From Methanobrevibacter sp. (GTDB taxonomy: Archaea > Methanobacteriota > Methanobacteria > Methanobacteriales > Methanobacteriaceae), in NCBI RefSeq assembly GCF_017940815.1, contig NZ_JAGAXX010000028.1, positions 1 through 64,000 of the forward strand: DNA of 64,000 nt. The letters run 5' to 3'. This document shows, piece by piece, positions 1,035 through 64,000 of this stretch (position 1 is its first letter; every line of letters begins with the position of its first letter). Below the pieces are notes generated by a model. The model made no database searches, was not told the DNA's origin, and saw only the letters and a program-made list of their open reading frames with translations. A program made the position numbers and the translations under genes.

Positions 1035-1101
1035 TTTATATTATGATAATCTAAAATAAATATCACGGTAAACTCTCCATGTAATAAATGTGGAGGAGGT
1101 G
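1035..1101 (+). promoter_or_regulatory. Promoter, leader hairpin and strong RBS of adhesin 1
   Basis: A TATA-like TTTATATTA at 1035-1043 predicts transcription from about 1065. The leader contains CTCCAT (1075-1080) able to pair with GTGGAG (1090-1095). That stem covers the first half of an unusually strong ribosome-binding site, GGAGGAGGTG (1092-1101), which lies 4 bases before ATG 1106. The hairpin could tune initiation; this is inferred from pairing alone. Confidence 0.5.
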
Positions 1102-1105
1102 TATT

Positions 1106-29400: not shown

Positions 29401-32400
29401 ACAATGGGCAATGTGACTGACGGAACAGTGCTGGTAGAAGTATACGGACACAATTACACAGTCCCAATAACCTCAGGTGTAGCTAAACTCAATGTTACAG
29501 CAACAGTCATTGGTGACAACTTCCCTGTAACTGCATACTTCTTAGGTGATAACAAGTACAATGCAACCAGCAAAGCTGGAAACACCTTCAATGTAACCGG
29601 TAAATACACTACCGTAATCACAATTGATGTTGAAAGCGTTGTTGTGGTTGATGATGAAGTGATTGTAACAGTAACCACAAACACTACTGCTCCATTGAAC
29701 GTGACTGTAAACGGCAAACAAGTAACCTTAAACAGCACAGGACAATTTGTAGCAGACACAAGTGCTGCCGGAACATACACAATCACAGCAAAAACAGAGG
29801 AAAGTGAATTCTACTATGGTGCAGTCAACTCAACAACATACACTGTAATCAAGCACAACTCTACTGTTGACATTGCTGTGGATCCAGTGCATTATGTGAA
29901 CGACACTTTCACAATCACTGTAACCAGCAATACCACTGTTAATGTAACAATTAACGGTAAAGTCTACACTGTTGGTGCTGACGGTAAGGTTGACATTGAT
30001 ACAGCAACTTTACCTGCTGGCGAATACATTGTAAATGCTGTTGTGACTGAAAGCGACAAGTATTATGGTAACTCCTCAACTGCAACATTCAACATTGTAA
30101 AATACAATGCTGAAATCATCTCAGTTGTTGCAGCTCCAACAATCGGTCCTGTAGGTCAAAACACTACTTTCACAGTGACAATGGGCAACGTAACCACTGG
30201 AACTGTTAAAATCGAAGTAAATGGTGTTAACTACACTGTACCAATCGTTGACGGTGTGGCTACATTGAATGTAACAATGCCTCTCGGCAAGTACGATAAT
30301 GTATCTGCTTACTTCCTAGGAGATTACAAGTACAATGCAACCAACAAGACCGGAAATGCATTTGAAGTTACCGACAAGAACATTACATTTATCACAATCG
30401 ATGTAGAAAGCGTTGTTGTGGTTGACGATGAATTGATTGTAACACTCAATACCAACACTACAGCTCCATTGAACGTGACTGTAAACGGCAAACCAGTAAC
30501 TCTCGTGGACAACAAGTTCACTGCTGACACTTCCGTAGCTGGAACATACACTATTGTTGCAAAAGCAGATGAAAACGAGTTCTACTCAAATGGATTCAAT
30601 TCAACAACATTCACTGTAATCAAGCACAACTCTACTGTTGACATTGCTGTTGACCCAACACACTATGTTGGAGATGACTTCACAATCATTGTGACAAGCA
30701 ACACTACAGTTACAGTTGCTATCAACGGTAAATCATGCACTATTGATGCTGACGGTAAAGTGATTATTAACACTACCGCTCTTGATGCAGGAGAATACAT
30801 CGTGACCGCAACAGTCACTGAAAACGACAAGTACTATGGAAACACTACAACAAAAACATTCAACATTGTTAAAGTGGCATCCAAAGTCAATGTGACTGCT
30901 GAAAACATCGTATACGGTAACGAATCCGAAATCACAGTTAAAGTTCCAGTCCAACAAACAGGATACGTGACAATAACTGTCAACAACAAGAACTACACTG
31001 AAGTGATTACTAACGGCGAAGCTAAATTCACAATTCCAAACCTTAACGTTGGAACATACACTGTGAATGTAACATACTTAGGAGACAACACATACAACTC
31101 CTCAACAAATACTACAAGCTTCAATGTGACAAAAGCTGAATTGACTGCAACCGTTGAAGGTAAAAACATTACAGTAGATGAAAACTCAACATTCATCGTA
31201 AATGTTGATCCAAACTTCAAAGGAAACGTTTCAATCACTGTCGATGGCGTAACTTATGACGGATCAGTAAAATCCTTAATTGAAATGGACAAACTCACTG
31301 CTGGTGATAAGACCGCTACCGTAAGGTTCTACGGTGACGACAACTTCAATGAAACAACCATGGATGTCAACTTCAAAGTATCCAAACTCGATACAAACAT
31401 GAGGGTAATTGACAACGGTAATGGAACCGTAATGGTTATTGTTCCTGACAATGCAACAGGTAATGTGACAGTCAAACTCGGTGATAAGACATACAACGCA
31501 ACTATTGTGAACGGAACCGCTATTGTGAACATGGATGATGTTCCATCCGGCAAATACAATGTGACCGTAAGCTACCCTGGAGATGACAGGTACAACAATG
31601 CTACAGTTAACGCAAGCATTGAAATCAAACCTAAAGAAACTCCAATAAGCGTCAACGTAACCAACATCAAGGTTGGAGATGTTGAAACAATCATTGTAAG
31701 CGTGCCAAGCGATGCAACAGGAAACATAACAATTTCAATTGACGGTAAACCATACACAGCAGCTATTGTGAACGGCAATGCAACATTCACAATTTCCGAC
31801 TTGACTGCCGGAAACAAGACAGTTGCAGTTAACTACCTTGGAGACACCAAGTACGGTGCTAACTTCACTTCCGCACAATTCACAGTATCCAAACGTGAAT
31901 CATACGTGAACGTGGATGTTGAAGCAACCAACGTAGGAAGCCCAGTAACAATCAGTGTGGAAATCCCTGAAAACGCAACAGGAATTGTCATTGTAAATGT
32001 TGACGGAACAAACTACACAGTACAAACAGTCAATGGTAAAGGATCCCTTGCAATAACTGGTGTTGGAAACACAACTCACACAGTTAAAGTGACCTATCTC
32101 GGTGATGACCAATACTTCAACAGCACAAACAGCACAACATACGGTCTCAAAAAGCTCGCTTCAGAAGTGACAGTTAAAGTTGACAATATCTATGCTGGCG
32201 AAACTGCTGTATTGGAAATTACAGTAACAGATGGTGCAACAGGAAACGTAACCATTAAGATTGGTGACGAGTATCAAGACACAGTTGGTGTAACAAGTGG
32301 AAAAATCACTGTAAACGTTCCAGGATTAACTGCTGGAGACAAGACAGTTGAAGTCACATACAACGGTGACGACAAGTACTTGCCAAGTGAAAACTCCACA

Positions 32401-33474
32401 ACATTTGAAGTGGGAATCAAGGATGCGGTAATACTCACTAACGACGTTGTCGCATACTATAATGAAACCACATTCACAGCAAGACTAGCTGACACTGACA
32501 ACAACCCAATTGCTGGCGAAACAATTGTATTTAAAGTCAATGGCCAAACCTACACTGCAGTAACTGACGAATACGGTAACGCTAATGTGACATTCGAATT
32601 ACCGTTAGGAAAATACACAATCGAGTCAAGTTACACAGATCCGAAAGGCAAGGTCATTAACGCAACAAATACAATCACAATGTCCACTTCAATCAGGGCT
32701 TCTGACATGACCAGAGGTTGGAACAGTCCATACGACTACTATGCAGTATTCCTTGACGGAGACGGACACGTGCTTGTCAACAAGGAAGTTTCATTCGTCA
32801 TAAATGGTAAAACATATGATGTGGTAACAGATGCAAAAGGTATTGCATATTTAAACACTAAACTTGATGTTGGAAAATATGGAGTCACATTAATCAACAA
32901 GGTGACTGGTGAGGTTACAAAAAGAAATGCAACCATTGTAAAACGTCTGATTGAAAACAAGGATATTACAATGGACTTCCGTGACGGAACATGGTATACT
33001 GTAAAAGTCATCGGTGACGACGGTAAACCTGTAGGTGAAGGCGAGATCATTGATATCTACGTAAACACTATCCACTACGTATGTAAGACAGACAAGGATG
33101 GTTACGCAAGACTCTTGATCAACTTGAACCCTAAGACATACACAGTTTCACCTGAATATAAGACCTACAAAGTTTCCAATAAACTTGTGGTTAAACAAAC
33201 TCTTAAATTAGTCAAAAAGACTGTTAAAGTCAAAAAAGGCAAAAAACTTGTGCTTAAAGCTACACTCAAATGGTCCAACGGAAAAGCCATCAAAGGCAAA
33301 AAGATTGTCTTCAAGTTCAAAGGTAAAAAATACTCCGCTAAGACCAATTCCAAAGGTGTCGCTAAAGTGACTATCAAGAAGAGCGTTACCAAGAAACTTA
33401 AGAAGGGCAAAAAGTACAAATACTCTGCTCGTTACTACACAAACTATGTGAAAGGAAAAGTGAAAGTTAAATAG
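17458..33474 (+). CDS. Giant secreted adhesin-like protein with two beta-helices and Ig-like super-repeats, 5,338 aa
   Basis: Second giant adhesin-like protein, presumably exported and wall-associated. Two starts are possible: ATG 17458, or ATG 17503 (residue 16), from which a textbook signal peptide begins (MRIKTE, hydrophobic core, GGVSAAD). I give the longer form but favour the second. An acidic, Ser/Thr-rich linker follows. Residues about 120-1,035 are a right-handed beta-helix with many CTF/CNF strands. Residues about 1,035-1,145 are one Ig-like domain, and about 1,150-2,640 a second beta-helix whose N-cap again reads LIINGHG. Residues about 2,660-5,080 are Ig-like domains, including six tandem three-domain units. 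The last 260 residues repeat the Lys-rich module of adhesin 1. It is collinear with adhesin 1, separated only by the DUF92 gene, and ends in two successive hairpin terminators. The ligand is unknown. Confidence 0.9.
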   Translation: MSKVYNLIKIDLAIYMRIKTEILLIIAIIFVAMIGGVSAADDNQTSDVVSVADDSPTVDTKTNDTVGVTTVKDESSIEEEDSVIEEETIAETENDKGSVLAASSKDDDVLGVPADQEVLGATLKDLQTLINGNGNTKTLTQDYVVGTNTADYQRVTINKNLQINGNGHRIDANGRGAIFYITGNRQIIFNNLIIANAGTGQNDGGAIYCTGTCTMTFTNCQFINNRRNGNGGVLYSDYGGTFSFTDCTFIGNSATGNGGAIHEDYTGSYTFTRCTFDGNVASRGSAFDSSSSYYTNSFTMNDCKVYNNAASSQAALYLVANTVRIIDTDFENNTGYSDGGAIHVQAANNPLYVTGCTFTNNQATSTAEDSEGRGGALRISSVSTLNLDDCTFNGNSAMYGGALYAPYVASESSRITNCNFNNNVGSSNGGAIYWNANGTTFYNNKFNGNKADNGAGLFLAYAVHNTVIDDCTFNDNQAMNEGGAIMGIYNENNVQVTDSYFNRNVAINGGAIALGQNSNDFTLDNCQFNGNHASGYGGCVYFESDGEHIDITNSHFDDNFASSGGAIHLFSSLMDDSYKDVNVIKCTFHDNNCTSPDARYGGSAIGLNWANDVTISQCTFDLNHASSNGAVMVDYCYDVNVDNCDFINNYAGRFGGAFYAYHAVGDADVTFTKCTFDNNTAARSGGAISTTLFSVNYENLGNVYKNWQITDCDFTNNKGVLSAGALYLPWTTGLVINNIPFDNNTAGSYGAMYWSGDSLNIHDVNFTNNDAKEGDCGALYIGVGTGTAGAHTVINNVLFENNTAYSNGGALSGAASNVDITNDKFKNNSAWYGGAIYWNGGANVNIDKNEFIANSANSAGAVDIYGTKNTNIHNSVFVNNTATNQAGAVWFNSEGGSIYSCDFTNNKAGSNAGAIILDSTSQTIRDCKFDKNVAGGKGGAVYDTGSGADNSIFIRDSTFTENEAYDGAGVYITDGRVTQIYNGTFIDNIASHNGGGAYVMVDSIPYVDYDLFKHTGIYEESTERINWNVGSRNVIYSSLFENNNIDYYMNVSAVVSGLTAVITVTVPVDANKSKGGKVVFDITYTNQTGSYKTQYVLDNFDDNPGTITLNLPSSEVGHYDVIVQFSEQTYLMKQFNVSYNVTDPRGDFEILQGLINDAIANHFAELDLTRSYTFTPGNETNPLDFNVYDIEINAPLIINGHGWTINALGYCRIFAVNGANVVLNDLKIINGANATDGGAIYWAGSNGTVRHTEFTNNTATHDGGAIYFAPTAADSQVLNCTFEDNTAGEDGGAIDWNATRGVLNDSEFINNAAGSYGGALCREVNADGGYGNNNVFINNTAGEVGGAIAWMKSESITINNYDFINNTAGYSGGAIYVGEGSGNCVVKNSYFEANEVTGEPGHGGAIEWYSKEGTIDNSEFVNNKAYKGGAVFVGQVAGDINITNSVFTNNTALTHGGAIDANASSVIMEHSEFYNNTAEYGGALYVGGAGEHNSVGYCLFIGNNATENGGAIDWAASNGNVLESTFEYNHAKNGGAVFVGGLAEEGSVINSTFNHNSADEKGGAVCWNATIGRLTGSTFFNNSAQLGGATYRGANSTGGFGYDNDYISNHAELDGGAIYWNGAGGNITYSEFHNNTAGRNGGAVYVGAVGATAYITDALFVNNDAGGNGGAVDWAASNGHILRSTFEYNDAVNGGAVFIGGSAEGGSVINSTFNHNTAKEKGGAIDWNSTIGRLSGSTFFNNSAQLGGATYRGANSTGGFGYDNVYISNKAELDGGAIYWNGAGGNITDSEFHDNIAGRNGGGVYVGAVGATAYITDALFDNNTAGENGGAVDWAASNGHILRSTFEYNNANNGGAVYVGGSADSGSVINSTFNYNHAEENGGAIDWNAAGGNITNSQFTENTAGNGGAVYVGAEGATTYITDAKFERNKADLNGGAVDWAASNGHILTSEFNYNEAVNNGGAVFIGGSSGNGTIINSTFNYNHAGENGGAIDWNSTIGKLIGSNFTFNSAKYGGATFRGANATGGYGYNNRYISNYAEINGGAIDWNATGGNITHSYFYNNTAGENGGALFVGTHGATAYITDAQFESNKAGNRGGAIDIYASNTHIINSNFTTNKADYGGAVFAGHNAEVSEITNSTFISNTATYNGGAVDWNASSGKITDSNFEQNTADYGGAVFVGASTNDGYVKGSNFTYNVAKTRGGAIDWNASNGHVNDSIFVGNQAVDGGAIYVGSGASNGHVYNSTFISNRADDKKGKGGAILFHTVDQVYVGMSNFTDNTADHAGAIYIDECNSAVIETSDFTANSANNDGAIHWQGKNGTLRDSTFTENSATQDAGAIGWKGVESDIYNVTFSKNTAGGKGGAVYWVNVTDDNIYNVTFTENQAFKGGAVYWDSGNGTIYNATFKSNVAFEEGGAVYINGLSGNALTNATFTSNRATGYFNPEGIEYGDGGALYITDSDNMELNDLKFDKNAAALSGGAIYVNNTDDSELYGLTFNDNSANKVGGTIYWTSSSNDTIHDISINKSTAHDEGGAIYLTDMEATLEDIKIDQSTASYASAGAIYANGNITINNATLTNFKSLNDVASAILFDGGNSTIANSTLTGNNAIVINEDTTVHVIKNTINDNPADGYAVLNGGTLYLEKNDFDDVIINAGVIKTQTYTVVLGNKTVNVTKGDVVTLNATIVDDTKNNDIVVVESFYFHDLTTGATIPSTYTGRANYGTYVAEEQGKYIISSEDVGLTNNTILTGTLVVKASNNIEFNITKINEGENVTIKVELLPPDNNFPYQGNISLTVDGKPYNVEIINGTGTLTLTNLSAGTYKVTAAYVGDEFHNNATNTTYFIVNLRETLINITVNNILYGQNATAVVTTNANGTVRILINGNRVVEIINGTATLNITGLAPGKYSATVIYPGNDYFKMNYNETSFEVYKNNAVIDSIEFARVVPVGTENTITVTMGNVTSGTITIEVNGVNYTAPIVNKVAKLNVTLPVGKDYAVNAYFLGDNYFNATNKTGGTFEVTDKNVTVINISSINVIEVDGRLVINFTTNTTAPLNVTINGKPVTVVDNSVVADTSAVGTYMLVVTSPENAYYSSGYNSTMYTVIKHNSTVNITVDPVHYVGDAFTIIIGNNTNVTVTINGRPYAVGADGKVVIDTTKLAAGDYIVSAVIAENDKYYGNSTEATFDIIKYNATIDSVVVTPTVEVGQNLTVTVTMGNVTSGNVLMELYGNNYTVPIVNSVATINVTATKIGNDFGVTAYFLGDDKYNATSKAGNTFNVTGKYPTVIIINVTSVVEVDDLLIVNITTNTTAPLIVEVNGNPVTVNSTGQFIADTSVAGTYTITARTDEGDLYYGGFNSTTFNVIKHNSTVNVTVDPVHFVEDVFTINVTNNTAVVVTINGNVYDVKADGTVNIDTTKLAAGEYIVTATIAENDKYYGNSSTAKFNVVKYNAEIISVVASPSIAPHGQNTTLTVTMGNVTDGMITIEVNGTNYTAPIVSGVATLNISLPIGKYANVTAYFLGDYKYNATNKTGNAFEVTDKNITVITIDVESVVVVDDEVIVTLNTNTTAPLNVTVNGKPVTLVDNKFTADTSAAGTYTIVARADENEFYTSGFNSTTFTVIKYNSTVDIAVDPVHYVNDTFTIIVTSNTTVNVTINGKSYTVGADGKVNIDTAALAAGDYVINAVVAENDKYYGNSSNATFTIVKYNAEIASVVATPVVAVGQNTTITVTMANVTSGTITIEVNGVNYTATINNKIAVLNVTLPVGKDYPVTAYFLGDYKYNATSKAGNTFEVTDKNVTIITIDVESVVVVDDEVIVTITTNTTAPLNVTVNGKQVTLNSTGQFVADTSVAGNYNIVARADENEFYSNGFNSTTFTVIKNNSTVNITVDSVHYVEDDFTITISNNTNVTVTINGKTYAVKADGTVDIDTTALDAGEYIVIATIAENDKYYGNTSTATFNIVKYNATIESVVATPTTEIGQNITITVTMGNVTDGTVLVEVYGHNYTVPITSGVAKLNVTATVIGDNFPVTAYFLGDNKYNATSKAGNTFNVTGKYTTVITIDVESVVVVDDEVIVTVTTNTTAPLNVTVNGKQVTLNSTGQFVADTSAAGTYTITAKTEESEFYYGAVNSTTYTVIKHNSTVDIAVDPVHYVNDTFTITVTSNTTVNVTINGKVYTVGADGKVDIDTATLPAGEYIVNAVVTESDKYYGNSSTATFNIVKYNAEIISVVAAPTIGPVGQNTTFTVTMGNVTTGTVKIEVNGVNYTVPIVDGVATLNVTMPLGKYDNVSAYFLGDYKYNATNKTGNAFEVTDKNITFITIDVESVVVVDDELIVTLNTNTTAPLNVTVNGKPVTLVDNKFTADTSVAGTYTIVAKADENEFYSNGFNSTTFTVIKHNSTVDIAVDPTHYVGDDFTIIVTSNTTVTVAINGKSCTIDADGKVIINTTALDAGEYIVTATVTENDKYYGNTTTKTFNIVKVASKVNVTAENIVYGNESEITVKVPVQQTGYVTITVNNKNYTEVITNGEAKFTIPNLNVGTYTVNVTYLGDNTYNSSTNTTSFNVTKAELTATVEGKNITVDENSTFIVNVDPNFKGNVSITVDGVTYDGSVKSLIEMDKLTAGDKTATVRFYGDDNFNETTMDVNFKVSKLDTNMRVIDNGNGTVMVIVPDNATGNVTVKLGDKTYNATIVNGTAIVNMDDVPSGKYNVTVSYPGDDRYNNATVNASIEIKPKETPISVNVTNIKVGDVETIIVSVPSDATGNITISIDGKPYTAAIVNGNATFTISDLTAGNKTVAVNYLGDTKYGANFTSAQFTVSKRESYVNVDVEATNVGSPVTISVEIPENATGIVIVNVDGTNYTVQTVNGKGSLAITGVGNTTHTVKVTYLGDDQYFNSTNSTTYGLKKLASEVTVKVDNIYAGETAVLEITVTDGATGNVTIKIGDEYQDTVGVTSGKITVNVPGLTAGDKTVEVTYNGDDKYLPSENSTTFEVGIKDAVILTNDVVAYYNETTFTARLADTDNNPIAGETIVFKVNGQTYTAVTDEYGNANVTFELPLGKYTIESSYTDPKGKVINATNTITMSTSIRASDMTRGWNSPYDYYAVFLDGDGHVLVNKEVSFVINGKTYDVVTDAKGIAYLNTKLDVGKYGVTLINKVTGEVTKRNATIVKRLIENKDITMDFRDGTWYTVKVIGDDGKPVGEGEIIDIYVNTIHYVCKTDKDGYARLLINLNPKTYTVSPEYKTYKVSNKLVVKQTLKLVKKTVKVKKGKKLVLKATLKWSNGKAIKGKKIVFKFKGKKYSAKTNSKGVAKVTIKKSVTKKLKKGKKYKYSARYYTNYVKGKVKVK
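22081..23040 (+). repeat. Direct 480-bp tandem duplication in adhesin 2
   Basis: Bases 22081-22560 and 22561-23040 align without a gap at an exact 480-bp (160-codon) offset. They share long identical runs, for example around 22190-22250 against 22670-22730. Partial, more diverged copies follow near 23041-23600. Confidence 0.85.
26245..30874 (+). repeat. Six tandem 3-domain Ig-like super-repeats (~771 bp each) in adhesin 2
   Basis: The element encoding (Y/N)NA.I.SV begins at 26245, 27013, 27787, 28558, 29329 and 30103, giving periods of 768, 774, 771, 771 and 774 bp. Each unit holds three Ig-like domains in the same order. The array ends near 30874 at the codons for KVASKVNVT. Confidence 0.85.
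32695..33471 (+). repeat. C-terminal module shared by both giant adhesins (copy 2)
   Basis: Counterpart of 15480-16258: RGWNSPYDY, ENKDITMDFRDGT, NPKTYTV and the Lys-rich terminal domain are all retained. Confidence 0.85.
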
Positions 33475-35017: not shown

Positions 35018-36355
35018 ATGGTAGCAAAAAAACTATTTGGAACATCAGGAATTAGGGGAAAGATAGGTTCTGAAGTGACTTGTGAATTAGCATTAAATGT
35101 AGGTAAATCATTGGCATACTATCTCGGCAATGAAGGTACTGTTGTTTTAGGATATGACACAAGAACTACAAATAAGATGCTTGACCAAGCAATCACCGCA
35201 GGTTTGCTTGAAAGCGGTGTTAATGTAGTTAAAATTGGAATGGTTCCAACACCTTTAGTTGGTTATGCTACTGAAAAACTCGATGCCGATGCGGGAATAA
35301 TGTTGACCGCATCACACAATCCGTCCCAATATAACGGAATAAAGTTATGGAATAAAAACGGTATGGCATACACTTCCGTTCAGGAAGCGGAAATTGAAGA
35401 TATATACGCTGAAAAGTCATACATTTCAGTAACTTGGGACAAAGTAGGTAAATTAAGTGTTAACGATGAAATCAAGGGTCAATATGTCGATGACCTTGTT
35501 GACATGGTTGACATTAAGGAAGGTTTGAAGGTTGTAATTGATTGTGCATCCGGAGCAGGAAGTGAAATATCACCATTAGTATTCAGAAAGGCCTGCTGTG
35601 AGGTAACAACATTGAATTCCCAACCTGACGGATTTTTCCCAGGCCGTAACCCAGAACCGAATGCCGAAAACTTACAGACCTTGATGAAGACCGTTGTAGC
35701 TATTGGGGCAGACTTGGGTATTGCCCATGATGGTGATGCCGACAGGATGATTACTGTTGATGAAAACGGCGAAATCTCCCCATTCGACTCATTACTCGCA
35801 TTGATATCAAAAGAGTTCGATGGAGATGTGGTGACCACTGTTGATGCAGGATTATGCATGGACGAGTCAGTCAAAGGTAACGTATTCAGAACTCCTGTAG
35901 GGGATGTGAATGTCGCTGAAGTCATAATTGAGAAGAATGCAAGTTTCGGAGGAGAACCTTCAGGAACATGGTTGCACCCTGATTTCTGCATGTGTCCTGA
36001 CGGAATATTGTCCGGTTTGAGAATGGCGGAACTGGTGTCCAATAAGGGCAAACTGTCTGAACTGCTTGCGGAGATTCCATCTTATCCAAACATCCGTGAA
36101 AAAATAACCTGCTCAAAAGAGGCTAAGGTTAAAGTGATGGAAAATATGGAAGAGTTGCTGAAAGACGCTTTTGATGATATTGTTGAGGTAAACTCTCTTG
36201 ATGGTGTAAGATTGACATTTGCTGATGATAGCTGGGTGTTGGTAAGGCCGTCCGGAACTGAAGACTACATCAGAATAACCTTGGAGTCTCGCGATGAGGC
36301 AAGAGCCGAATCTATCAAAGAGACTTGTGTAAAAATAATCAATGAAAACTTATAG
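35018..36355 (+). CDS. glmM: Phosphoglucosamine mutase
   Basis: Alpha-D-phosphohexomutase converting glucosamine-6-phosphate to glucosamine-1-phosphate, the first committed step towards UDP-GlcNAc for the cell wall and glycans. All four family signatures are present: TASHNP with the phosphoserine at residue 99, the Mg-binding loop DGDADR, the sugar-specificity loop FGGEPSG, and the phosphate-binding RPSGTE near the C-terminus. GEPSG rather than GEENGG, and the GTSGIRG N-terminus, favour GlmM over a phosphomannomutase. It has 445 residues, normal for the family. AGGTGG overlaps the apgM stop and precedes ATG 35018. A hairpin containing the stop codon and followed by a T-run ends the unit. A second, divergent paralogue lies at 42533-43897. 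Confidence 0.88.
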   Translation: MVAKKLFGTSGIRGKIGSEVTCELALNVGKSLAYYLGNEGTVVLGYDTRTTNKMLDQAITAGLLESGVNVVKIGMVPTPLVGYATEKLDADAGIMLTASHNPSQYNGIKLWNKNGMAYTSVQEAEIEDIYAEKSYISVTWDKVGKLSVNDEIKGQYVDDLVDMVDIKEGLKVVIDCASGAGSEISPLVFRKACCEVTTLNSQPDGFFPGRNPEPNAENLQTLMKTVVAIGADLGIAHDGDADRMITVDENGEISPFDSLLALISKEFDGDVVTTVDAGLCMDESVKGNVFRTPVGDVNVAEVIIEKNASFGGEPSGTWLHPDFCMCPDGILSGLRMAELVSNKGKLSELLAEIPSYPNIREKITCSKEAKVKVMENMEELLKDAFDDIVEVNSLDGVRLTFADDSWVLVRPSGTEDYIRITLESRDEARAESIKETCVKIINENL

Positions 36356-37644: not shown

Positions 37645-38925
37645 GTGAAAGCGATTATTTTAAGTGCTGGTGAAGGTTCTAGAATGAGGCCATTAACACT
37701 TACAAAGCCTAAGACCATGTTGCCAGTTGCTGGAAAGCCAATCATCCAATATAATATAGAATCATTAAGAGATAATGGAATTAAGGATATTCTGTTGATT
37801 GTAAGATATAAAGAAGAAATGGTTCGGGATTACTTTGGCGACGGTAGTGATTTTGGTGTTAACATTACATATCAAACACAAAAAGACTTTTTAGGTACTG
37901 CGAATGCCATAAGTTATGGTAAAGATTTTATAGAAGATAGTTTGATTGTTTTGAATGGGGATATCATTTTAGATGATGAAATTATTAATGAAATCATTAA
38001 AAAATTCAATTATTTAAAGCCAGATACCTTGATGCTTTTGACAGAGGTGGAAGACCCTTCTGCATTTGGTGTAGTTGAAATTGAGAACGGAAACATTAAA
38101 AGCATAGTTGAAAAACCTAAAAAAGAAGAGGCGCCAAGTAATTTGGTTAATGCAGGGATTTATGTCTTTAATAAGGACATATTCGATAAGATTGATAAAA
38201 CTGAGATTTCTGAGAGAGGAGAATACGAGATTACCGACTCAGTAACCTTGCAAATTAACGAAGGCAAAAAAGTCATCGGCCATAAAACAGATAAAGATTG
38301 GATCGATGTCGGAAGACCTTGGGAACTGATTGAGGTAAACGAAGAGTTAATCGGCCAACTCAAGACAGAAATCAAGGGTCATGTTGAAGACGGCGCACAC
38401 ATTCATGGTGAGGTCTTTTTGGATGAAGGAAGTATCATAAGGGCCGGTGTGTACATTGAAGGAAACGTGTACATCGGTAAGAACTGTGATGTGGGTCCTA
38501 ATTGTTATATCAGAGGCAATTCCTACTTTGGAGACAATGTCCATATTGGAAATGCCGTTGAAATTAAAAATTCTATCATTATGGAAAATACCAATGTTAG
38601 CCACTTAAGTTATGTTGGGGATTCAGTCATAGGGTCCAATTGTAATATAGCTGCCGGAACTAACATTGCTAACTTACGTTTTGATAATAGATCTGTAAAA
38701 ACCAAAATCAAAAATCAGATGATTGATAGTGGAAGACGTAAACTCGGTTCCATCATTGGGGATTCAGTGAAAACAGGTATCAACTCAAGTTTTTCACCGG
38801 GTGTTAAGGTAGGTCACAATGCCACTATCGGTTCAGGGGTTTTATTGTATGATGATGTACCCTCCGATACAAGAGTGTTGGTAAAACAGAATCATATTAT
38901 ACAAGATAAGAATAAGAAGAAATAG
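37645..38925 (+). CDS. glmU: Bifunctional sugar-1-phosphate nucleotidyltransferase/acetyltransferase, GlmU-like
   Basis: Likely makes UDP-GlcNAc from glucosamine-1-phosphate by acetylation and uridylylation, acting after GlmM. The N-terminal nucleotidyltransferase domain (residues 1 to about 230) has the signature LSAGEGSRMRPLT...KPKTMLPVAGKP and a metal-binding Asp in LNGDIILD (D106). The C-terminal part, residues about 245-400, is a left-handed beta-helix of hexapeptide repeats ending in GVKVGHNATIGSG, the acetyltransferase module seen in Sulfolobus and methanogen bifunctional enzymes. Thymidylyl- or uridylyl-transfer to glucose-1-phosphate is a possible side activity that sequence alone cannot exclude. 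The start is GTG 37645, preceded by AGGGGAT. It heads a tightly spaced five-gene operon ending at 42375. Confidence 0.85.
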   Translation: MKAIILSAGEGSRMRPLTLTKPKTMLPVAGKPIIQYNIESLRDNGIKDILLIVRYKEEMVRDYFGDGSDFGVNITYQTQKDFLGTANAISYGKDFIEDSLIVLNGDIILDDEIINEIIKKFNYLKPDTLMLLTEVEDPSAFGVVEIENGNIKSIVEKPKKEEAPSNLVNAGIYVFNKDIFDKIDKTEISERGEYEITDSVTLQINEGKKVIGHKTDKDWIDVGRPWELIEVNEELIGQLKTEIKGHVEDGAHIHGEVFLDEGSIIRAGVYIEGNVYIGKNCDVGPNCYIRGNSYFGDNVHIGNAVEIKNSIIMENTNVSHLSYVGDSVIGSNCNIAAGTNIANLRFDNRSVKTKIKNQMIDSGRRKLGSIIGDSVKTGINSSFSPGVKVGHNATIGSGVLLYDDVPSDTRVLVKQNHIIQDKNKKK

Positions 38926-42532: not shown

Positions 42533-43897
42533 TTATTTTTTGTATTTTTCAATTAAGCCAATTCCCCAATCGGTCATTTCGTCAGCTTTTGCCTGTGAGT
42601 CGGATTCCGCAAAGCATCTGAAAATCGGTTCGGTACCTGAAGGTCTGATGATTACCCAGCCGTCGTCTTTTAGGATTTTGACTCCATCGGTCAAGTCCAA
42701 TTCGAAATCGGTTGTGGTTTTGATTTCATCTGCAATGCTGTTCATTACAAATTCCTTTTCGTCATCAGGACATTCAATTTTCATTTTGCTTGCATAGTAA
42801 ACAGGAAGCTCTGCCACCAATTCAGATAATGGTTTGCCTTCTTTTGCAACGATTTCAAGGATTTTTGCAACGGTCATTACTGCATCTCTTCCGTATACGA
42901 AGTCTGGGAAGATCAGTCCTCCGTTTTCCTCTCCTCCGAATAAACCATTTTCATCTTTAAGCTTACGAGCAACGAGCAAGTCTCCAACAGCAGTGGCAAT
43001 CACTTCGCCATTGTACTCTTCTGCAACGTCATAAATTGCCTGTGAAGTTGCAACGGTGGTGACAATGGTTCCTCCATTGTTTTCCTTAAGCATTTGTTTT
43101 TCAACAAGGGTGAATGTCTTGTCTCCTAAAACAAAATTGCCCTTTTCGTCAATGCAGATGGTTCTGTCTGCATCTCCATCGTGAGCAAGACCAATGTCTG
43201 CATTAAGTTCTTTTACAACACTAATCAATTCCTGCAAGTTTTCTTCAATAGGTTCAGGGTCACGTCCTGGGAAAAATCCGTCTGCCTGTGAGTTGAGGGT
43301 GGTTACGTCGCAACCTAACTTGCGAATCAAATATGGCGCGGTGTAGCATCCTGCACCTGACCCGCAGTCTACGACAACTTTTAAATTAGCGTTTTTAATG
43401 GCTTCAGCATCTACTTTGGAGATTGCTTCATCAACATATTCATCAATTATCGTATCATTGTGATATATCTGGCCGATTTCAGAGAATTCTGCTCTTTTTG
43501 GCTCTTCATCAAAGTATAATTTTTCAATCTCAAGTTCCATATCGTCAGGTATTCCAATACCGTCTGCATCTAAGAATTTAATACCATTGTATTTTGGCGG
43601 ATTGTGTGAAGCAGTAATCATGACTCCTCCGTCATAATACTTGCGAACTGCATACTGGACACCTGGAGTCGGCAATATTCCTAAATCCACAACATCACAG
43701 CCTGATGATAACAGTCCTGCTTTAACGGCTTCCATCAGCATTGGAGTTGAAGTACGTGTATCTCCTCCAACAGCCACGACTCCTTGAACAACTGTACCGT
43801 AACTGGCTGCGAGTCTTGTTGCAAATTCTGGTGTTAAAACGTCATTAGCGGTTCTTCTAACTCCAAAAGTTCCAAATAATCTTTTTTTATTAGACAT
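42533..43897 (-). CDS. Phosphohexomutase (phosphoglucomutase/phosphomannomutase family)
   Basis: Second alpha-D-phosphohexomutase of the window, 454 residues. TASHNP holds the phosphoserine S97, DGDADR is the metal loop, LFGGEENGG the sugar-specificity loop and RPSGTEP the phosphate-binding loop. GEENGG is usual for phosphoglucomutase/phosphomannomutase-type enzymes and contrasts with GEPSG in the glmM product at 35018-36355. The N-terminal block is GTFGVRR where family members usually have GTSGIRG or GTFGVRG. The likely role is mannose-6-phosphate or glucose-6-phosphate to the 1-phosphate for nucleotide-sugar synthesis, although many archaeal members were named glmM. ATG 43897 is the start. 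It stands alone between the convergent operon end and a divergently promoted minus-strand OB-fold gene. Confidence 0.88.
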   Translation of the reverse strand: MSNKKRLFGTFGVRRTANDVLTPEFATRLAASYGTVVQGVVAVGGDTRTSTPMLMEAVKAGLLSSGCDVVDLGILPTPGVQYAVRKYYDGGVMITASHNPPKYNGIKFLDADGIGIPDDMELEIEKLYFDEEPKRAEFSEIGQIYHNDTIIDEYVDEAISKVDAEAIKNANLKVVVDCGSGAGCYTAPYLIRKLGCDVTTLNSQADGFFPGRDPEPIEENLQELISVVKELNADIGLAHDGDADRTICIDEKGNFVLGDKTFTLVEKQMLKENNGGTIVTTVATSQAIYDVAEEYNGEVIATAVGDLLVARKLKDENGLFGGEENGGLIFPDFVYGRDAVMTVAKILEIVAKEGKPLSELVAELPVYYASKMKIECPDDEKEFVMNSIADEIKTTTDFELDLTDGVKILKDDGWVIIRPSGTEPIFRCFAESDSQAKADEMTDWGIGLIEKYKK

Positions 43898-54250: not shown

Positions 54251-54310
54251 TATTTATATATTAAGAAAAATTAAAATCATATATATAAATTATTATCAAC
54301 TGTGATTTTC

Positions 54311-55273
54311 ATGATGTATACATCGATACTTTTTGCATTAATATTTGTTTTTGTCATATCTGCAATAGGTACTGCTGTAATAAATATAATATTTAGATTT
54401 TTGGGCGAAAGAGGATATTTGGGAAACCTGTTTCCAAACGTTAGGGGTGGAACTCCACGTGCTGTGGGTATAATTCCATTTTTAATATTGTCTTTTTATA
54501 TGTTGCCTGGTTTTAATAATCTGATTTTAATAATAGGTATTTTTGCATTAATTGACGACATTTTGGGAAGAAAGAAATCTCCGTTCGGTATGGAATGGGG
54601 ACAGTTGTCTAGGGGTATCGGAATAATCATTGTAATGGTTGTTGGTTTGCTTGAAGGATTGGGCGTATCTTCAATTTTTATTGCGTTAATGGTGCAGCCG
54701 TTAAACATTTCAGACATGCAACCGGGTTCTACATGCATTGTAACAATCATAATGTCTGTTTTGACAATTTTTGCAATGTTGATTGTCGGATCTCAGCCAT
54801 ATGCTGAACTTCCTGCTATTTACACTCCATTATTAATATTGGTTGTATGCATGGCTTATTCTCCGCTTGACTTTTCAGGAAAAATCATGTTGGGCGAAGT
54901 TGGAAATCACACATTTGGAATTGCACTTGGTCTAGCTTATTATGTTATGGGCGGACTGGTGGGTGTGCTTGTATTCGGATTTATCACAACCGCATTGATT
55001 GCATTTGTTAGAAGAAACAATTTGAGAGTGTTCTTCAGACAGCAATTAAGATTGCTTGACCCTACCTTCGGAGATTATTTCATGGACGTTTTAACTGGAG
55101 GGGGATTAGGAGACTTACTCAGAAAATGGATTTTAAGAGATAATCAATATAGGATAACAAACCCATTATTGATTTCATTAGGTTTCAGAAGATTAGTATA
55201 CAATCCTCATGCAAGACATCACGAAAAATATGTTCCAAAAAATTATATTCCTCGTTTAGGAAAAGGAGAGTGA
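54311..55273 (+). CDS. MraY-like phospho-sugar transferase, candidate pseudomurein lipid I synthase
   Basis: Polytopic membrane protein of the MraY/WecA (polyprenyl-phosphate N-acetylhexosamine-1-phosphate transferase) superfamily. ATG 54311 is preferred over GTG 54302 because GTGAT then serves as ribosome-binding site. Counterparts of MraY motifs appear in order: GGTP (46-49), the catalytic Asp pair DD (82-83) in IDDILGRK, LGEVGNHTFGIALG (194-207) at the place of GDVGSLALG, with Glu where the third catalytic Asp stands, and PHARHH (299-304) at the place of the PxHHH motif. About nine hydrophobic segments fill the rest. With the glycosyltransferase that starts five bases later it makes a MraY/MurG-like pair, which in a pseudomurein-walled organism suggests the undecaprenyl-linked wall precursor steps. 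The substrate is inferred. Confidence 0.75.
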   Translation: MMYTSILFALIFVFVISAIGTAVINIIFRFLGERGYLGNLFPNVRGGTPRAVGIIPFLILSFYMLPGFNNLILIIGIFALIDDILGRKKSPFGMEWGQLSRGIGIIIVMVVGLLEGLGVSSIFIALMVQPLNISDMQPGSTCIVTIIMSVLTIFAMLIVGSQPYAELPAIYTPLLILVVCMAYSPLDFSGKIMLGEVGNHTFGIALGLAYYVMGGLVGVLVFGFITTALIAFVRRNNLRVFFRQQLRLLDPTFGDYFMDVLTGGGLGDLLRKWILRDNQYRITNPLLISLGFRRLVYNPHARHHEKYVPKNYIPRLGKGE

Positions 55274-55278
55274 TTCTT

Positions 55279-56328
55279 TTGAAATGTTTACTTATTGTCA
55301 CTGGTAGAGGTTTGGGGGGAGATGCCATGATTGCTCTAAACACCATGTCTGCACTTGAGAAAAGGGGTGTTGAATGTGATGTTGCTTTAGATGAATCTGC
55401 TCCGGGTCTTTTATTTGAAAAAAACGGATATTCTTGGCATAAGATATCTGTTCCTCAAGCGGGAGGTCACTCTGCCACTAAATTGTCTGCTCTTAAGGGA
55501 GCTTTGAAATTGATTTCTGCTACTTTTAAAGCAAGAAAGGCTATTAAAAAATCAAAAGCTGATTTTGTATTGGGCATATTGGGTGGAGGAGCTATTGTTG
55601 CTTCTCTTGGAGGTAAATTTGCACGTAAACCTACTTTTTCTTTAATTTCAACTCCTCTCGATTCAAGAGTGTGTCCAAAATTCAATCATTGTTATATTTT
55701 ACCAGAATTGAATAAATTCAGATGGGATAAATTGCCTAAGAATATGGAAAAATCCTTTTATCCGTTATCCGATGATATGGGAAAGGGTGAATCCGACATT
55801 GCTCTTCAAAAGTTAAAGCAATATCCGAATTTTGATGAAAATAAAAAGACTATTGTATTTTCTTCAGGATCTTCAATCTTTAAAGGAATAATTGATGGTA
55901 TCAATATTGTTGCAGACAAGACTGATGAGTATAACCTTGTTTTGGTGGGTTTGCCTCTTAAGGATGAGTATTATGACTTGATCGATGAAAATAAAATAAT
56001 CTATGCTGGTTATATTGACTGGATTAATCATCTGTTCAAGTTTGCTGACTTGACTGTTCTCACTGATGACGGGGTTTCACTGGAGGAAGCATTCACTAAT
56101 GGAAAACCTATTGTTGCTCTTGCTCGTGTCAAATGGGGAAGATACCAGAACATGGCGGGAGTATTCAAAGGCGCTATGATAGAATCAGACGTTGGTGATG
56201 TTTACGAAAGCATTCAGGAAGCTTTTGAAAATTATGATTCCCTGCAGGAAAATGCGCTGTATTATGGGGATGTGTGTATGAATGCCGCAGATAATTTGGC
56301 TGACAGCATCCTAAAAAAAGTAGAATAG
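55279..56328 (+). CDS. MurG-like glycosyltransferase, candidate pseudomurein lipid II synthase
   Basis: A 349-residue GT-B-fold glycosyltransferase resembling MurG/GT28. TTG 55279 is chosen because GGAGAGTGAT lies five bases before it; GTG 55270 would bury that signal. The N-terminus MKCLLIVTGRGLGGD holds the Gly-rich loop at the nucleotide-sugar/acceptor site. FVLGILGGGAIVASLGGKFA resembles the GGYxSxP...A block of MurG. The C-terminal half has TIVFSSGSSIFKGI, the HLFKFADLTVLTDDGVSLEEAFTNGKPIVALA region with a Glu expected to contact the nucleotide ribose, and a helical tail. It probably adds a sugar from a UDP-sugar to the product of the MraY-like enzyme encoded just upstream, at the inner membrane face. 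Acceptor and donor are inferred. A hairpin shared with the convergent oxidoreductase gene ends it. Confidence 0.72.
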   Translation: MKCLLIVTGRGLGGDAMIALNTMSALEKRGVECDVALDESAPGLLFEKNGYSWHKISVPQAGGHSATKLSALKGALKLISATFKARKAIKKSKADFVLGILGGGAIVASLGGKFARKPTFSLISTPLDSRVCPKFNHCYILPELNKFRWDKLPKNMEKSFYPLSDDMGKGESDIALQKLKQYPNFDENKKTIVFSSGSSIFKGIIDGINIVADKTDEYNLVLVGLPLKDEYYDLIDENKIIYAGYIDWINHLFKFADLTVLTDDGVSLEEAFTNGKPIVALARVKWGRYQNMAGVFKGAMIESDVGDVYESIQEAFENYDSLQENALYYGDVCMNAADNLADSILKKVE

Positions 56329-61155: not shown

Positions 61156-62358
61156 TTAATAATTTTTTAAGATATCTAATAGATTTTTGATGATATAGTC
61201 AACTTCTTCAGTGGTTAATGTGGAGTATATCGGCAGGCTTATCTCATTTTCAAATAAATGATATGCATTAGGATAATCGGCAATGTCAAATCCTAAATTT
61301 TTATAAGCTGTTAATAATGGGAGTGGTTTGTAGTGGACATTTGTGCTTATTCCTGCTTCTTCCATTTTTACTATGATTTCATTTCTTTGCTCTAAACTTA
61401 TGCCTTCAAGTCTTGCCAGGTATAGGTGTCCTGAAGATGCGGAATTTTCGCTAAAGTGGCGTGGTGTGATAACTTTGCTGTCCTTAAATCCCTCATCATA
61501 TTGTCTGATGATTTCATGTCTTCTTGAAAGCATTTCATCATAGCGTTTCAATTGTCCAAGGCCTATTCCCGCTTGGATATCTGTCATGTTGCATTTGTAT
61601 GCAGGAAGTAGAATGTCATATTCCCATGATCCCTTTTGAGTCTTTTCCAATGCGTCCTTGGTTTGTCCATGCAATGAATAAATTTGATATTTCTTGTATA
61701 GTTTCTCACTGTCAATATTTTCATTTTTCTTCCAGGTTACTGCGCCTCCCTCGGCTGTTGTGAGGTTTTTAACAGCATGGAATGAGAAACAAGTAAAATC
61801 AGCTAGGTTTCCTGATTTTTTGCCATCATTTACGGCACCGAAACCATGAGCGGAATCAGCTACAATGATGATTCTATTGAAAGCCTCTTGTAACTCGGTG
61901 GATGGTGTGAACAAATCCTTTTTGGATTCGATTATTTCATAAATCTTATCGTAATCGCACAATATTCCTGCAATGTCTACTGGAATGATCGCTTTGGTTT
62001 TTTCACTAATTGCATCACTTAACTTGTCATAGTCCATTAGTTGGGTGTCAACTTGGCTGTCTATCATGACCGGTGTTGCCCCGACATGGCAGATTACGCT
62101 ACATGATGCGGTATAGGTGTATGCAGGCACGATTACCTCATCTCCTTCACCAATGCCTAAAACTCTCAATGTCATTTCTAGGGCAGTTGTAGCAGCACTT
62201 AAACAAACAGTTCTGTCGCTGCCGCAATATTCAGTTATTTTACTTTCAAATTCTTTTGTTTTAGGGCCAGTAGTAATCCAGCCTGACTTTAATGCTGCAA
62301 TTACTTCATTAATCTCTTCTTCACTAATGTCTGGTGGTGAAAATGGAATCTTCATCAT
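61156..62358 (-). CDS. DegT/DnrJ/EryC1/StrS-family sugar aminotransferase
   Basis: PLP-dependent enzyme that aminates a keto sugar bound to a nucleotide, probably UDP-4-keto-6-deoxy-HexNAc made by the dehydratase encoded just upstream. The 400-residue protein starts MKIPFSPPDISEEEI, has SGWITTGPKTKEFE, VPAYTYTASCSVICHVGATPVMID, DSAHGFGA, and the PLP lysine K197 in CFSFHAVKNLTTAEGGAV, followed by NMTDIQAGIG and STNVHYKPL. These are typical of the PseC/PglE/WbpE group. GGAG lies eight bases before the double ATG at 62358. The start is three bases past the stop of the dehydratase gene, so they are co-transcribed. The exact sugar cannot be told from sequence. Confidence 0.9.
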   Translation of the reverse strand: MMKIPFSPPDISEEEINEVIAALKSGWITTGPKTKEFESKITEYCGSDRTVCLSAATTALEMTLRVLGIGEGDEVIVPAYTYTASCSVICHVGATPVMIDSQVDTQLMDYDKLSDAISEKTKAIIPVDIAGILCDYDKIYEIIESKKDLFTPSTELQEAFNRIIIVADSAHGFGAVNDGKKSGNLADFTCFSFHAVKNLTTAEGGAVTWKKNENIDSEKLYKKYQIYSLHGQTKDALEKTQKGSWEYDILLPAYKCNMTDIQAGIGLGQLKRYDEMLSRRHEIIRQYDEGFKDSKVITPRHFSENSASSGHLYLARLEGISLEQRNEIIVKMEEAGISTNVHYKPLPLLTAYKNLGFDIADYPNAYHLFENEISLPIYSTLTTEEVDYIIKNLLDILKNY

Positions 62359-62361
62359 TAT

Positions 62362-64000
62362 TTATTCTCCGTTAACTTCTTCAGGTTCTTTATATGTAGG
62401 AACACATTTTTTCATTGTATCCTTAATTTCATCCTTGCCTACATTCTCATCTTTCAAGAGTTCTCTAAACATGTCTAATTTCTTTTCGATATCCTCCATC
62501 GCAAAATTCATGGATTCTGTGATGAATATCTTGTCATGTTTGGTGCTTTCAAGATTTTCTTCGCTCATCAGTAACTCTTCGTAGAGTTTTTCTCCAGGTC
62601 TCATGCCAGTGATTTCAATTTCCATGTCCTTACCTAATGTGTATCCTGACAACTCGATAAGGCTTTTTGCAAGGTCATAAATTTTAACCGGCTCTCCCAT
62701 GTCCAGCACGAAAATCTCTCCACCTTCGGCATAGGTTATTGCCTGAAGCACTAAAGCAACAGCTTCAGGAATTGTCATGAAGAATCTTGTTATCTCTTTA
62801 TGGGTTACGGTTACAGGTCCTCCATGGGCAATCTGCTTTTTGAATAATGGAACGACAGATCCATTACTGCCAAGCACATTACCGAACCTGACTGCAACAA
62901 ACTCTGTGGAGCTTTCCTTATCTTTTGCCTGGATTATCATTTCACATAATCTTTTACTGGCTCCCATGATGTTTGTTGGGTTAACCGCCTTGTCAGTTGA
63001 AATTAAAATAAATCTTTTAACATTAAATTTGTCTGAACAGTTTACCAGGTTGTATGTTCCGAATACATTATTTTTTATAGCTTCAGTTGGGTTGTTTTCC
63101 ATCAATGGAACATGCTTGTGTGCTGCTGCATGGAAAACGATTTCTGGGGAATACTTTTCAAATATTGACTCTAGCCTGTCTTTTTCACGGATATTTGCAA
63201 CGACTGCACGAATGTCGTGATTAGGATTGTTTGTTTTAAGCTCAAGCTCAATATCATATAAACTGTTTTCATAGTTGTCTAGCAATATCATTTGTTTTGG
63301 ATTGTGGAGCATTATCTGTCTGCATAGTTCGGATCCTATTGACCCTCCTGCTCCGGTAACTAAAACAACTTTCTCATTAATTAAATTTTTAATATTGTGA
63401 TTGTCAAGTTCAATTGGGTCTCTTCCAAGCAAATCCTCTATTTCAACATCTCTTAAGCTATGGAAGAGGTTTTCTTGAGTAATCATCTCTTTTAAACTTG
63501 ATAGGACTTTTACCTTTACGTTGGTTTTGCTGCACAATTCAAGAATCTCTCTTTTATTCTTGTTGTCGATATTTACAATTGTGAAAAATATTTCGTCAAT
63601 CTTTTGACTTTCACAGATTGGTATGATTTTGGTCCTGTCGCCGAGGATTCTGACTCCTGCCACTGAATAACCGATACGTTTTTTATTGTCATCAATGATT
63701 CCAATGATTTCGTATTGTCCTTTAAGAGATGAATTTAAAGTTTTGATAATGTCATTTGCGGAGTATCCTCCTCCAATGATTAATAATCTCTTTTTGTTTT
63801 CAGACTCTGAATTGTTGTTGTTGCTCACAACATCATTTAATAACACATATTTGATTAGTAGCCTGTAAACAACCATCAGTATACCGATGACTATTGCAAT
63901 AACCAGATTGTGTTTGATTGTTGGATTTTTCATGCCTAAAAACAACTCTTCAATAAATGACACAATCAATATTGAAAACACTGAAAGAATGATGTATAAA
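62362..64000 (-). CDS. UDP-sugar 4,6-dehydratase of the PglF/WbpM/CapD type, 5' end outside the window
   Basis: Membrane-anchored nucleotide-sugar dehydratase/epimerase that probably turns UDP-GlcNAc into a 4-keto-6-deoxy sugar. The frame stays open to the window edge, so the start and some N-terminal membrane segments are missing; the GTG at 63981 is internal. The visible part begins with hydrophobic helices (VSFIEELF; NLVIAIVIGILMVVYRLLI), then a CoA-binding-type Rossmann domain (LLIIGGGYSANDII), then the short-chain dehydrogenase domain: VLVTGAGGSIGSELCRQI, HAAAHKHVPLME, and STDKAVNPTNIMGASKR. In that last block the usual catalytic Tyr is Met, which is characteristic of the PglF/WbpM group. 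RFGNVLGSNGSVVPLF and GMRPGEKLYEELL complete it. It is co-transcribed with the aminotransferase and probably belongs to a surface-glycan cluster continuing beyond the window. Confidence 0.92.
   Translation of the reverse strand, partial: LYIILSVFSILIVSFIEELFLGMKNPTIKHNLVIAIVIGILMVVYRLLIKYVLLNDVVSNNNNSESENKKRLLIIGGGYSANDIIKTLNSSLKGQYEIIGIIDDNKKRIGYSVAGVRILGDRTKIIPICESQKIDEIFFTIVNIDNKNKREILELCSKTNVKVKVLSSLKEMITQENLFHSLRDVEIEDLLGRDPIELDNHNIKNLINEKVVLVTGAGGSIGSELCRQIMLHNPKQMILLDNYENSLYDIELELKTNNPNHDIRAVVANIREKDRLESIFEKYSPEIVFHAAAHKHVPLMENNPTEAIKNNVFGTYNLVNCSDKFNVKRFILISTDKAVNPTNIMGASKRLCEMIIQAKDKESSTEFVAVRFGNVLGSNGSVVPLFKKQIAHGGPVTVTHKEITRFFMTIPEAVALVLQAITYAEGGEIFVLDMGEPVKIYDLAKSLIELSGYTLGKDMEIEITGMRPGEKLYEELLMSEENLESTKHDKIFITESMNFAMEDIEKKLDMFRELLKDENVGKDEIKDTMKKCVPTYKEPEEVNGE

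Follow-up and report, generated by a model that had tools for sequence, protein, structure and literature searches.

A divergent, predicted polyprenyl-phosphate sugar-1-phosphate transferase encoded beside a MurG-like glycosyltransferase in Methanobrevibacter, with a lineage-dependent Glu or Asp at its putative metal-binding position

The window, meaning the whole 64,000-nucleotide stretch of Methanobrevibacter DNA that was analysed, is part of a 2.03-Mb genome held in 88 contigs. Two of its forward-strand genes, here called gene A and gene B, had been described in an earlier note as lying five bases apart at positions 54311-56328, and the sequence bears this out. Gene A runs from an ATG at 54311 to a TGA at 55271-55273, and five bases separate this stop from the TTG of gene B at 55279, with GGAG/GTGAT immediately 5' of the second gene. 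An alternative in-frame GTG for gene A is present at 54302; the GTGAT at 54302-54306 resembles the ribosome-binding site of gene A instead. The closest named relatives of gene A among the matches listed come from Methanobrevibacter, with M. thaueri at 87%. The features of the pair are as follows.

54311-55273 (+): gene A, a predicted divergent polyprenyl-phosphate sugar-1-phosphate transferase (PNPT/GT4 superfamily) of 320 aa; from the open reading frame, predicted fold and profile comparison.
54554-54559 (+): Asp82-Asp83 of gene A, corresponding to D117/D118 of A. aeolicus MraY; aligned with the DD of MraY-like proteins and invariant in 112 homologues.
54704-54715 (+): Asn132-Ile-Ser-Asp135 (NIxD) of gene A, corresponding in the profile alignment to NLID/NxxD (N171 and D174 of B. 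subtilis MraY).
54896-54898 (+): GAA codon of Glu196 within GEVGN (residues 195-199) of gene A, aligned with D265, the Asp of A. aeolicus MraY that is a Mg2+ ligand.
55085-55114 (+): DVLTGGGLGD, a family-specific C-terminal motif of gene A, with almost no variation in alignments A2 and A5.
55205-55222 (+): PHARHH hexamer (residues 299-304) of gene A, non-conserved, with about 60 different hexamers at this place among homologues.
55270-55274 (+): GTGAT that overlaps the gene A stop and probably serves gene B as ribosome-binding site; an identical GTGAT lies 5' of gene A.
55279-56328 (+): gene B, a predicted MurG-like GT-B (GT28) glycosyltransferase of 349 aa with a TTG start; from Pfam, AlphaFold2 and Foldseek.
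55315-55323 (+): Gly13-Gly14-Asp15 (GGD) of gene B at the position of the MurG GGH, placed by aligning it with E. coli MurG in hhalign (E 4.1e-5).

A scan of gene A against Pfam and NCBIfam matches no family, and a profile built from 20 gene A sequences finds nothing among PDB chains even at E 10, so a comparison of folds was employed. The AlphaFold2 model is confident (pLDDT 86.5, pTM 0.86), and Foldseek returns DPAGT1 and MraY at a probability of 1.00 and nothing else comparable; the TM-scores are moderate (0.44-0.51), and the lowest E-values belong to DPAGT1 (1.9e-4; DPAGT1/Alg7, PDB 5O5E and 6BW5). Compared in hhalign with an alignment of canonical MraY-like proteins from its own clade, gene A reaches E 4.4e-6, and its DD, NIxD and MGEVGN are paired with DD, NLID and MGDTGS, respectively, while no meaningful alignment is obtained between the gene A profile and archaeal GPT. 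By these methods gene A is predicted to adopt the MraY/DPAGT1 transmembrane fold of the PNPT superfamily. The earlier description of a membrane transferase of MraY type agrees with this model, in which the Foldseek matches predict a lipid-phosphate sugar-1-phosphate transferase fold. Bacterial MraY (PDB 4J72, 5JNQ) has the predicted fold and the DD, NxxD and third-acid positions in common with gene A, but the Methanobacteria proteins carry Glu for D265 and have no HHH motif, the TM-scores are about 0.5, and PDB chains are unmatched by sequence.

The GGTP (residues 46-49), DD and GEVGN strings reported earlier are all found in gene A, and motif conservation was counted over 112 distinct homologues. 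Asn132, Ile133 and Asp135 are invariant (112/112). The MGDTGS of the same-clade MraY-like proteins aligns in turn with the MGDVGS of A. aeolicus MraY (PDB 4J72), in which D265 binds Mg2+ (PMC5039524, PMC4790310); the same papers show the MraY residues matching the DD, NIxD and GE/DxGN positions of gene A to be important. The profile alignment thereby places Glu196 at the Mg2+-binding D265, as had been claimed for the replacement of the third catalytic Asp, and on alignment and model Glu196 is assigned to the third catalytic acid position. Judged by its sequence, gene A is a variant of the PNPT superfamily, not a standard member, with a conservative departure (Glu versus Asp) at the third catalytic position.

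Residue 196 is Glu in 107 of the 112 homologues, Asp in four and Ser in one. All four Asp sequences come from Methanopyrus-like genomes (L161-L164), three of which were among the aligned sequences. When asked whether Glu is fixed across pseudomurein archaea, the data thus give a divided answer: in Methanobacteria it holds, with 107 Glu and one Ser, and in Methanopyrus it fails, with Asp in 4/4. Glu196 is real, and of the two lineages with this wall it is fixed in one; it is no requirement of pseudomurein, because all four Methanopyrus sequences have Asp. The same observation leaves the earlier suggestion that Glu perhaps suits another sugar nucleotide without support. The remaining PNPTs of these genomes carry Asp at the third acid, so Asp is probably the ancestral state at this position of gene A; the Methanopyrus gene, which sits on a long and oddly placed branch of the tree, may have Asp by reversal. 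The one Ser belongs to a horse-faeces MAG (L110) in which GGGVCD replaces GGGLGD and further conserved sites are changed, and this gene A copy is possibly degenerate or faulty.

PHARHH, which had been listed among the MraY-type motifs, occurs at only four loci among gene A homologues and lies at a variable position, and the roughly 60 alternatives there rule it out as the MraY HHH motif. A search of the C-terminal part of gene A for HHH or PxHHH, the motif of the fifth cytoplasmic loop of MraY, found none, and the donor used by gene A may hence differ from known ones. If gene A were catalytically altered or inactive and acted as a scaffold for gene B, the missing HHH-type motif, the Glu at the Mg2+ position and the single MAG with Ser would be accounted for, but the invariance of DD, N132 and D135 over 112 sequences and an acidic third position in 111/112 would be unexpected for a dead enzyme, which makes such a role highly improbable.

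Gene B scores 27.7 bits with PF03033 (Glyco_transf_28), narrowly above the cut-off, and 27.4 bits with PF00534. Its AlphaFold2 model has a pLDDT of 89.1, and E. coli MurG (1nlm) gives the highest TM-score listed by Foldseek, 0.77. From these models and profiles gene B is predicted to be a two-domain GT-B, GT28-like glycosyltransferase. Of the proposal that it is a MurG-like glycosyltransferase, the predicted fold stands, but membership in the MurG equivalog does not, with 19 bits against the TIGR01133 cut-off of 250. Gly13, Gly14 and Asp15 are invariant in alignment A1 (16/16 sequences), so that the loop His of MurG is Asp here. Fold and GGD-for-GGH are shared with the GT28 proteins of pseudomurein archaea in the Agl24 paper, where Asp for the loop His was already reported and proposed to suit a talosaminuronic acid acceptor (PMC8993221). 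A Methanopyrus GT28 protein has GGH, not GGD.

Within NCBIfam, gene B scores slightly higher with diglucosyl diacylglycerol synthase (20.1 bits) than with MurG (19.0 bits), both far below cut-off. This would fit a role of genes A and B in building another surface polymer or a glycolipid, such as the diglucosyl head group of archaeal glycolipids. Glycosyl-archaeol needs no PNPT partner, however, the gene B homologue of the deep lineage G139 favours MurG models (42 and 32 bits) over the synthase (28 bits), and the top listed TM-score of gene B is to MurG; the glycolipid or other-polymer role is accordingly regarded as improbable. Extra strong copies of gene B occur in tandem in one genome (G084:C13:36641-37687) and as three copies in another (G123:C1), a lineage-specific expansion.

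Of 152 genomes from the phylum, 145 carry gene A, which makes it effectively universal in Methanobacteria. A survey widened to 396 archaeal genomes adds five carriers, all belonging to a single Methanopyrus-like genus. No gene A homologue was found in the approximately 240 other archaeal genomes, and the check for the gene pair in archaea without pseudomurein therefore comes out as the earlier note had anticipated. The seven absences within the phylum are probably assembly gaps and not true losses, because the neighbouring pelota gene is missing as well in six of these genomes and the contig of the seventh stops just past pelota. A contig scan for gene A returned only Methanobacteria among the 80 loci kept, and no relatives were found on plasmids or viral contigs. 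Gene B is near-universal in Methanobacteria and was undetected in the Methanopyrus genomes, with none at E 10 in G181. The occurrence of gene A in one clade and in Methanopyrus goes back to one common event and not to many independent ones, and is weak evidence for any one function.

The deep lineage G139 and all examined loci of genus g1 have gene A directly 5' of gene B. The two are separated by one or a few genes in most other genera, and in one genus gene B is usually elsewhere. Housekeeping genes (pelota, CDC48 and prephenate dehydrogenase) are the usual neighbours of gene A, which makes its surroundings uninformative on function, and in the loci examined gene A never lies inside pseudomurein clusters A or B. 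In one Methanothermobacter genome (G149, locus L169) both genes are split by apparent frameshifts, which are probably old sequencing errors; the genes are intact in other Methanothermobacter genomes.

The other TRANSFERASES of the Methanobrevibacter genome are accounted for by two PF00953 genes located elsewhere (L001 and L002), which rule out gene A as its sole MraY. The first is the following feature.

L209:12567-13649: L001, a canonical MraY-like gene between a CPS-like ATP-grasp gene and a gene of 627 aa at the place of the Mur-delta ligase.

The L001 protein has the motifs NLIDGMDG, GDTGS and LHH, and its neighbourhood corresponds to pseudomurein cluster A, whose MraY-like protein is OG0001163 in Lupo et al. 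(2025, mSystems, PMC11915815). L002 has the motifs NMLAGLNG and FPGDTGT of archaeal GPT. Gene A lacks the archaeal GPT/AglH marks (NMLAGLNG, FPGDxGT and PF00953). Nor is it flanked by the CPS-like ATP-grasp and Mur-delta genes that both flank L001. Gene A and OG0001163 have superfamily and host organisms in common, whereas OG0001163 has NLIDGMDG, GDTGS, LHH, PF00953 and CPS-like and Mur-ligase neighbours, none of which gene A has. The tree puts gene A, the MraY-like proteins and GPT into three separate groups (100/100, 93/95 and 100/100, respectively), and the branches that lead to E. coli MraY are very long.

A second family in the same paper, OG0001207, is described as polytopic, with a distant MraY/WecA-like GT4 domain and a long branch, as distinct from OG0001163 and GPT, and as exclusive to pseudomurein archaea except for 63 bacterial homologues (PMC11915815). 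Gene A shares this description, being polytopic, GT4-like, confined to pseudomurein archaea and separate from both OG0001163 and GPT, and by elimination it is almost certainly OG0001207. The bacterial homologues may be unrelated to pseudomurein. The available part of the paper mentions neither the Glu/Asp split nor linkage to a MurG-like gene. The families themselves are known, and in the parts of the literature at hand the Glu/Asp split, the linkage of genes A and B and the argument from Methanopyrus were not found.

This argument turns on N-glycosylation. STT3/AglB is absent from the two complete Methanopyrus genomes, and gene A is kept in both. One of these, G181, is presumably M. kandleri AV19, in keeping with its 63% GC and its lack of AglB. 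Four of the five Methanopyrus genomes encode a single PF00953 protein, and the fifth, assembled in 90 contigs, yielded none; the single PF00953 gene of G181 is MraY-like. The absence of STT3/AglB from M. kandleri is also documented in the literature (PMC2952790, PMC8993221). Genes A and B might start an N-glycan or other protein-linked glycan in a role like that of Alg7 and Alg13/14, given that PNPT and MurG-like pairs initiate N-glycans in eukaryotes and probably in crenarchaea (PMC4973528, PMC8993221), and the DPAGT1 matches of gene A point the same way. A core N-glycan role for gene A is nevertheless disfavoured, because the two complete Methanopyrus genomes do without AglB and with one PF00953 gene each, and the Methanobacteria examined, including the present genome, keep a separate canonical GPT; an origin of N-glycans in this pair is considered quite improbable. 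Divergently transcribed from one Methanopyrus-like gene A is a 399-aa, apparently polytopic protein (L161:8062-9258, +) that looks flippase-like by eye. It matches no family, occurs in one further genome of eight tested and has no counterpart in the Methanobacteria among those tested, and it was set aside as a functional clue.

The earlier note had assigned the lipid I and lipid II steps of pseudomurein synthesis to genes A and B themselves, with Glu adapted to a pseudomurein sugar nucleotide. The limitation of both genes to pseudomurein-type archaea, their MraY- and MurG-like predicted folds and their operon-like spacing are what one would expect under that assignment. Against it, the Methanobrevibacter genome has a better MraY candidate (L001) within its cluster of wall genes, and M. 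kandleri has one too; gene A of Methanopyrus has Asp at the position in question, and no gene B was detected in Methanopyrus, itself a pseudomurein producer. In addition, the reviewed pathway transfers a ready-made UDP-disaccharide-pentapeptide to undecaprenyl phosphate in one step (PMC2812497). The disaccharide is completed before lipid transfer, and therefore one lipid transfer is expected, with no obvious lipid II step. The assignment of these two steps to genes A and B is thus probably wrong in detail, and the proposal as a whole is unlikely.

A reading of moderate probability, and the one preferred here, is that the two genes constitute a module, peculiar to pseudomurein-type archaea, that starts a lipid-linked saccharide for the wall or a polymer tied to it. 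A second lipid-linked saccharide is proposed because the cluster-A candidate fits the precursor step and an N-glycan role is disfavoured. For the catalysis, substrates, order of action and wall role of this starter module, we infer the following scheme. Gene A would transfer a sugar-1-phosphate from a UDP-sugar to polyprenyl phosphate with the help of Asp82/Asp83, Asn132/Asp135 and an acidic residue that binds Mg2+ (Glu196 in Methanobacteria, Asp in Methanopyrus), and gene B, the MurG-like GT-B enzyme, would then attach a second sugar. The product would feed the pseudomurein wall or a linked polymer alongside the cluster-A MraY-like enzyme, which is the better candidate for transfer of the peptide-bearing precursor. 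Extended to the lineage as a whole, this suggests, as a tentative idea with a rather low chance of being right, that pseudomurein uses two dedicated lipid-carrier transferases and not one. The MraY-like enzyme of cluster A would handle the peptide-bearing precursor, and OG0001207, together with the MurG-like protein, would handle a separate lipid-linked sugar. In Methanobacteria, which have the MurG-like partner, OG0001207 would have exchanged its metal-binding Asp for Glu, and in Methanopyrus it would not.

For the passage of the pseudomurein precursor to its membrane lipid carrier, two candidate transferases can now be told apart in the examined genomes; the more divergent of the two, gene A, is kept where N-glycan machinery is absent. 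Glu in one lineage and Asp in the other, at a metal-binding site that matters in MraY, offer a clean natural comparison that is open to mutation. Both transferases are possible targets for methanogen-specific inhibitors, the divergent one being without the histidine motif of bacterial MraY.

Elsewhere in the window, two very large, repeat-rich adhesin-like open reading frames at 1088-16261 and 17458-33474 (+; 5057 and 5338 aa) are of a kind typical of Methanobrevibacter surface proteins. Two archaeal GlmM phosphoglucosamine mutases above cut-off (35018-36355, +, and 42533-43897, -) and an archaeal GlmU-type enzyme (37645-38925, +) place genes for UDP-GlcNAc supply about 10-20 kb from genes A and B. 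At the right edge of the window, a PseC-like aminotransferase (61156-62358, -) is adjacent to a PseB/FnlA-like UDP-GlcNAc 4,6-dehydratase (62362-63981, -), a pair that scores below the equivalog cut-offs and points to an amino-sugar pathway.
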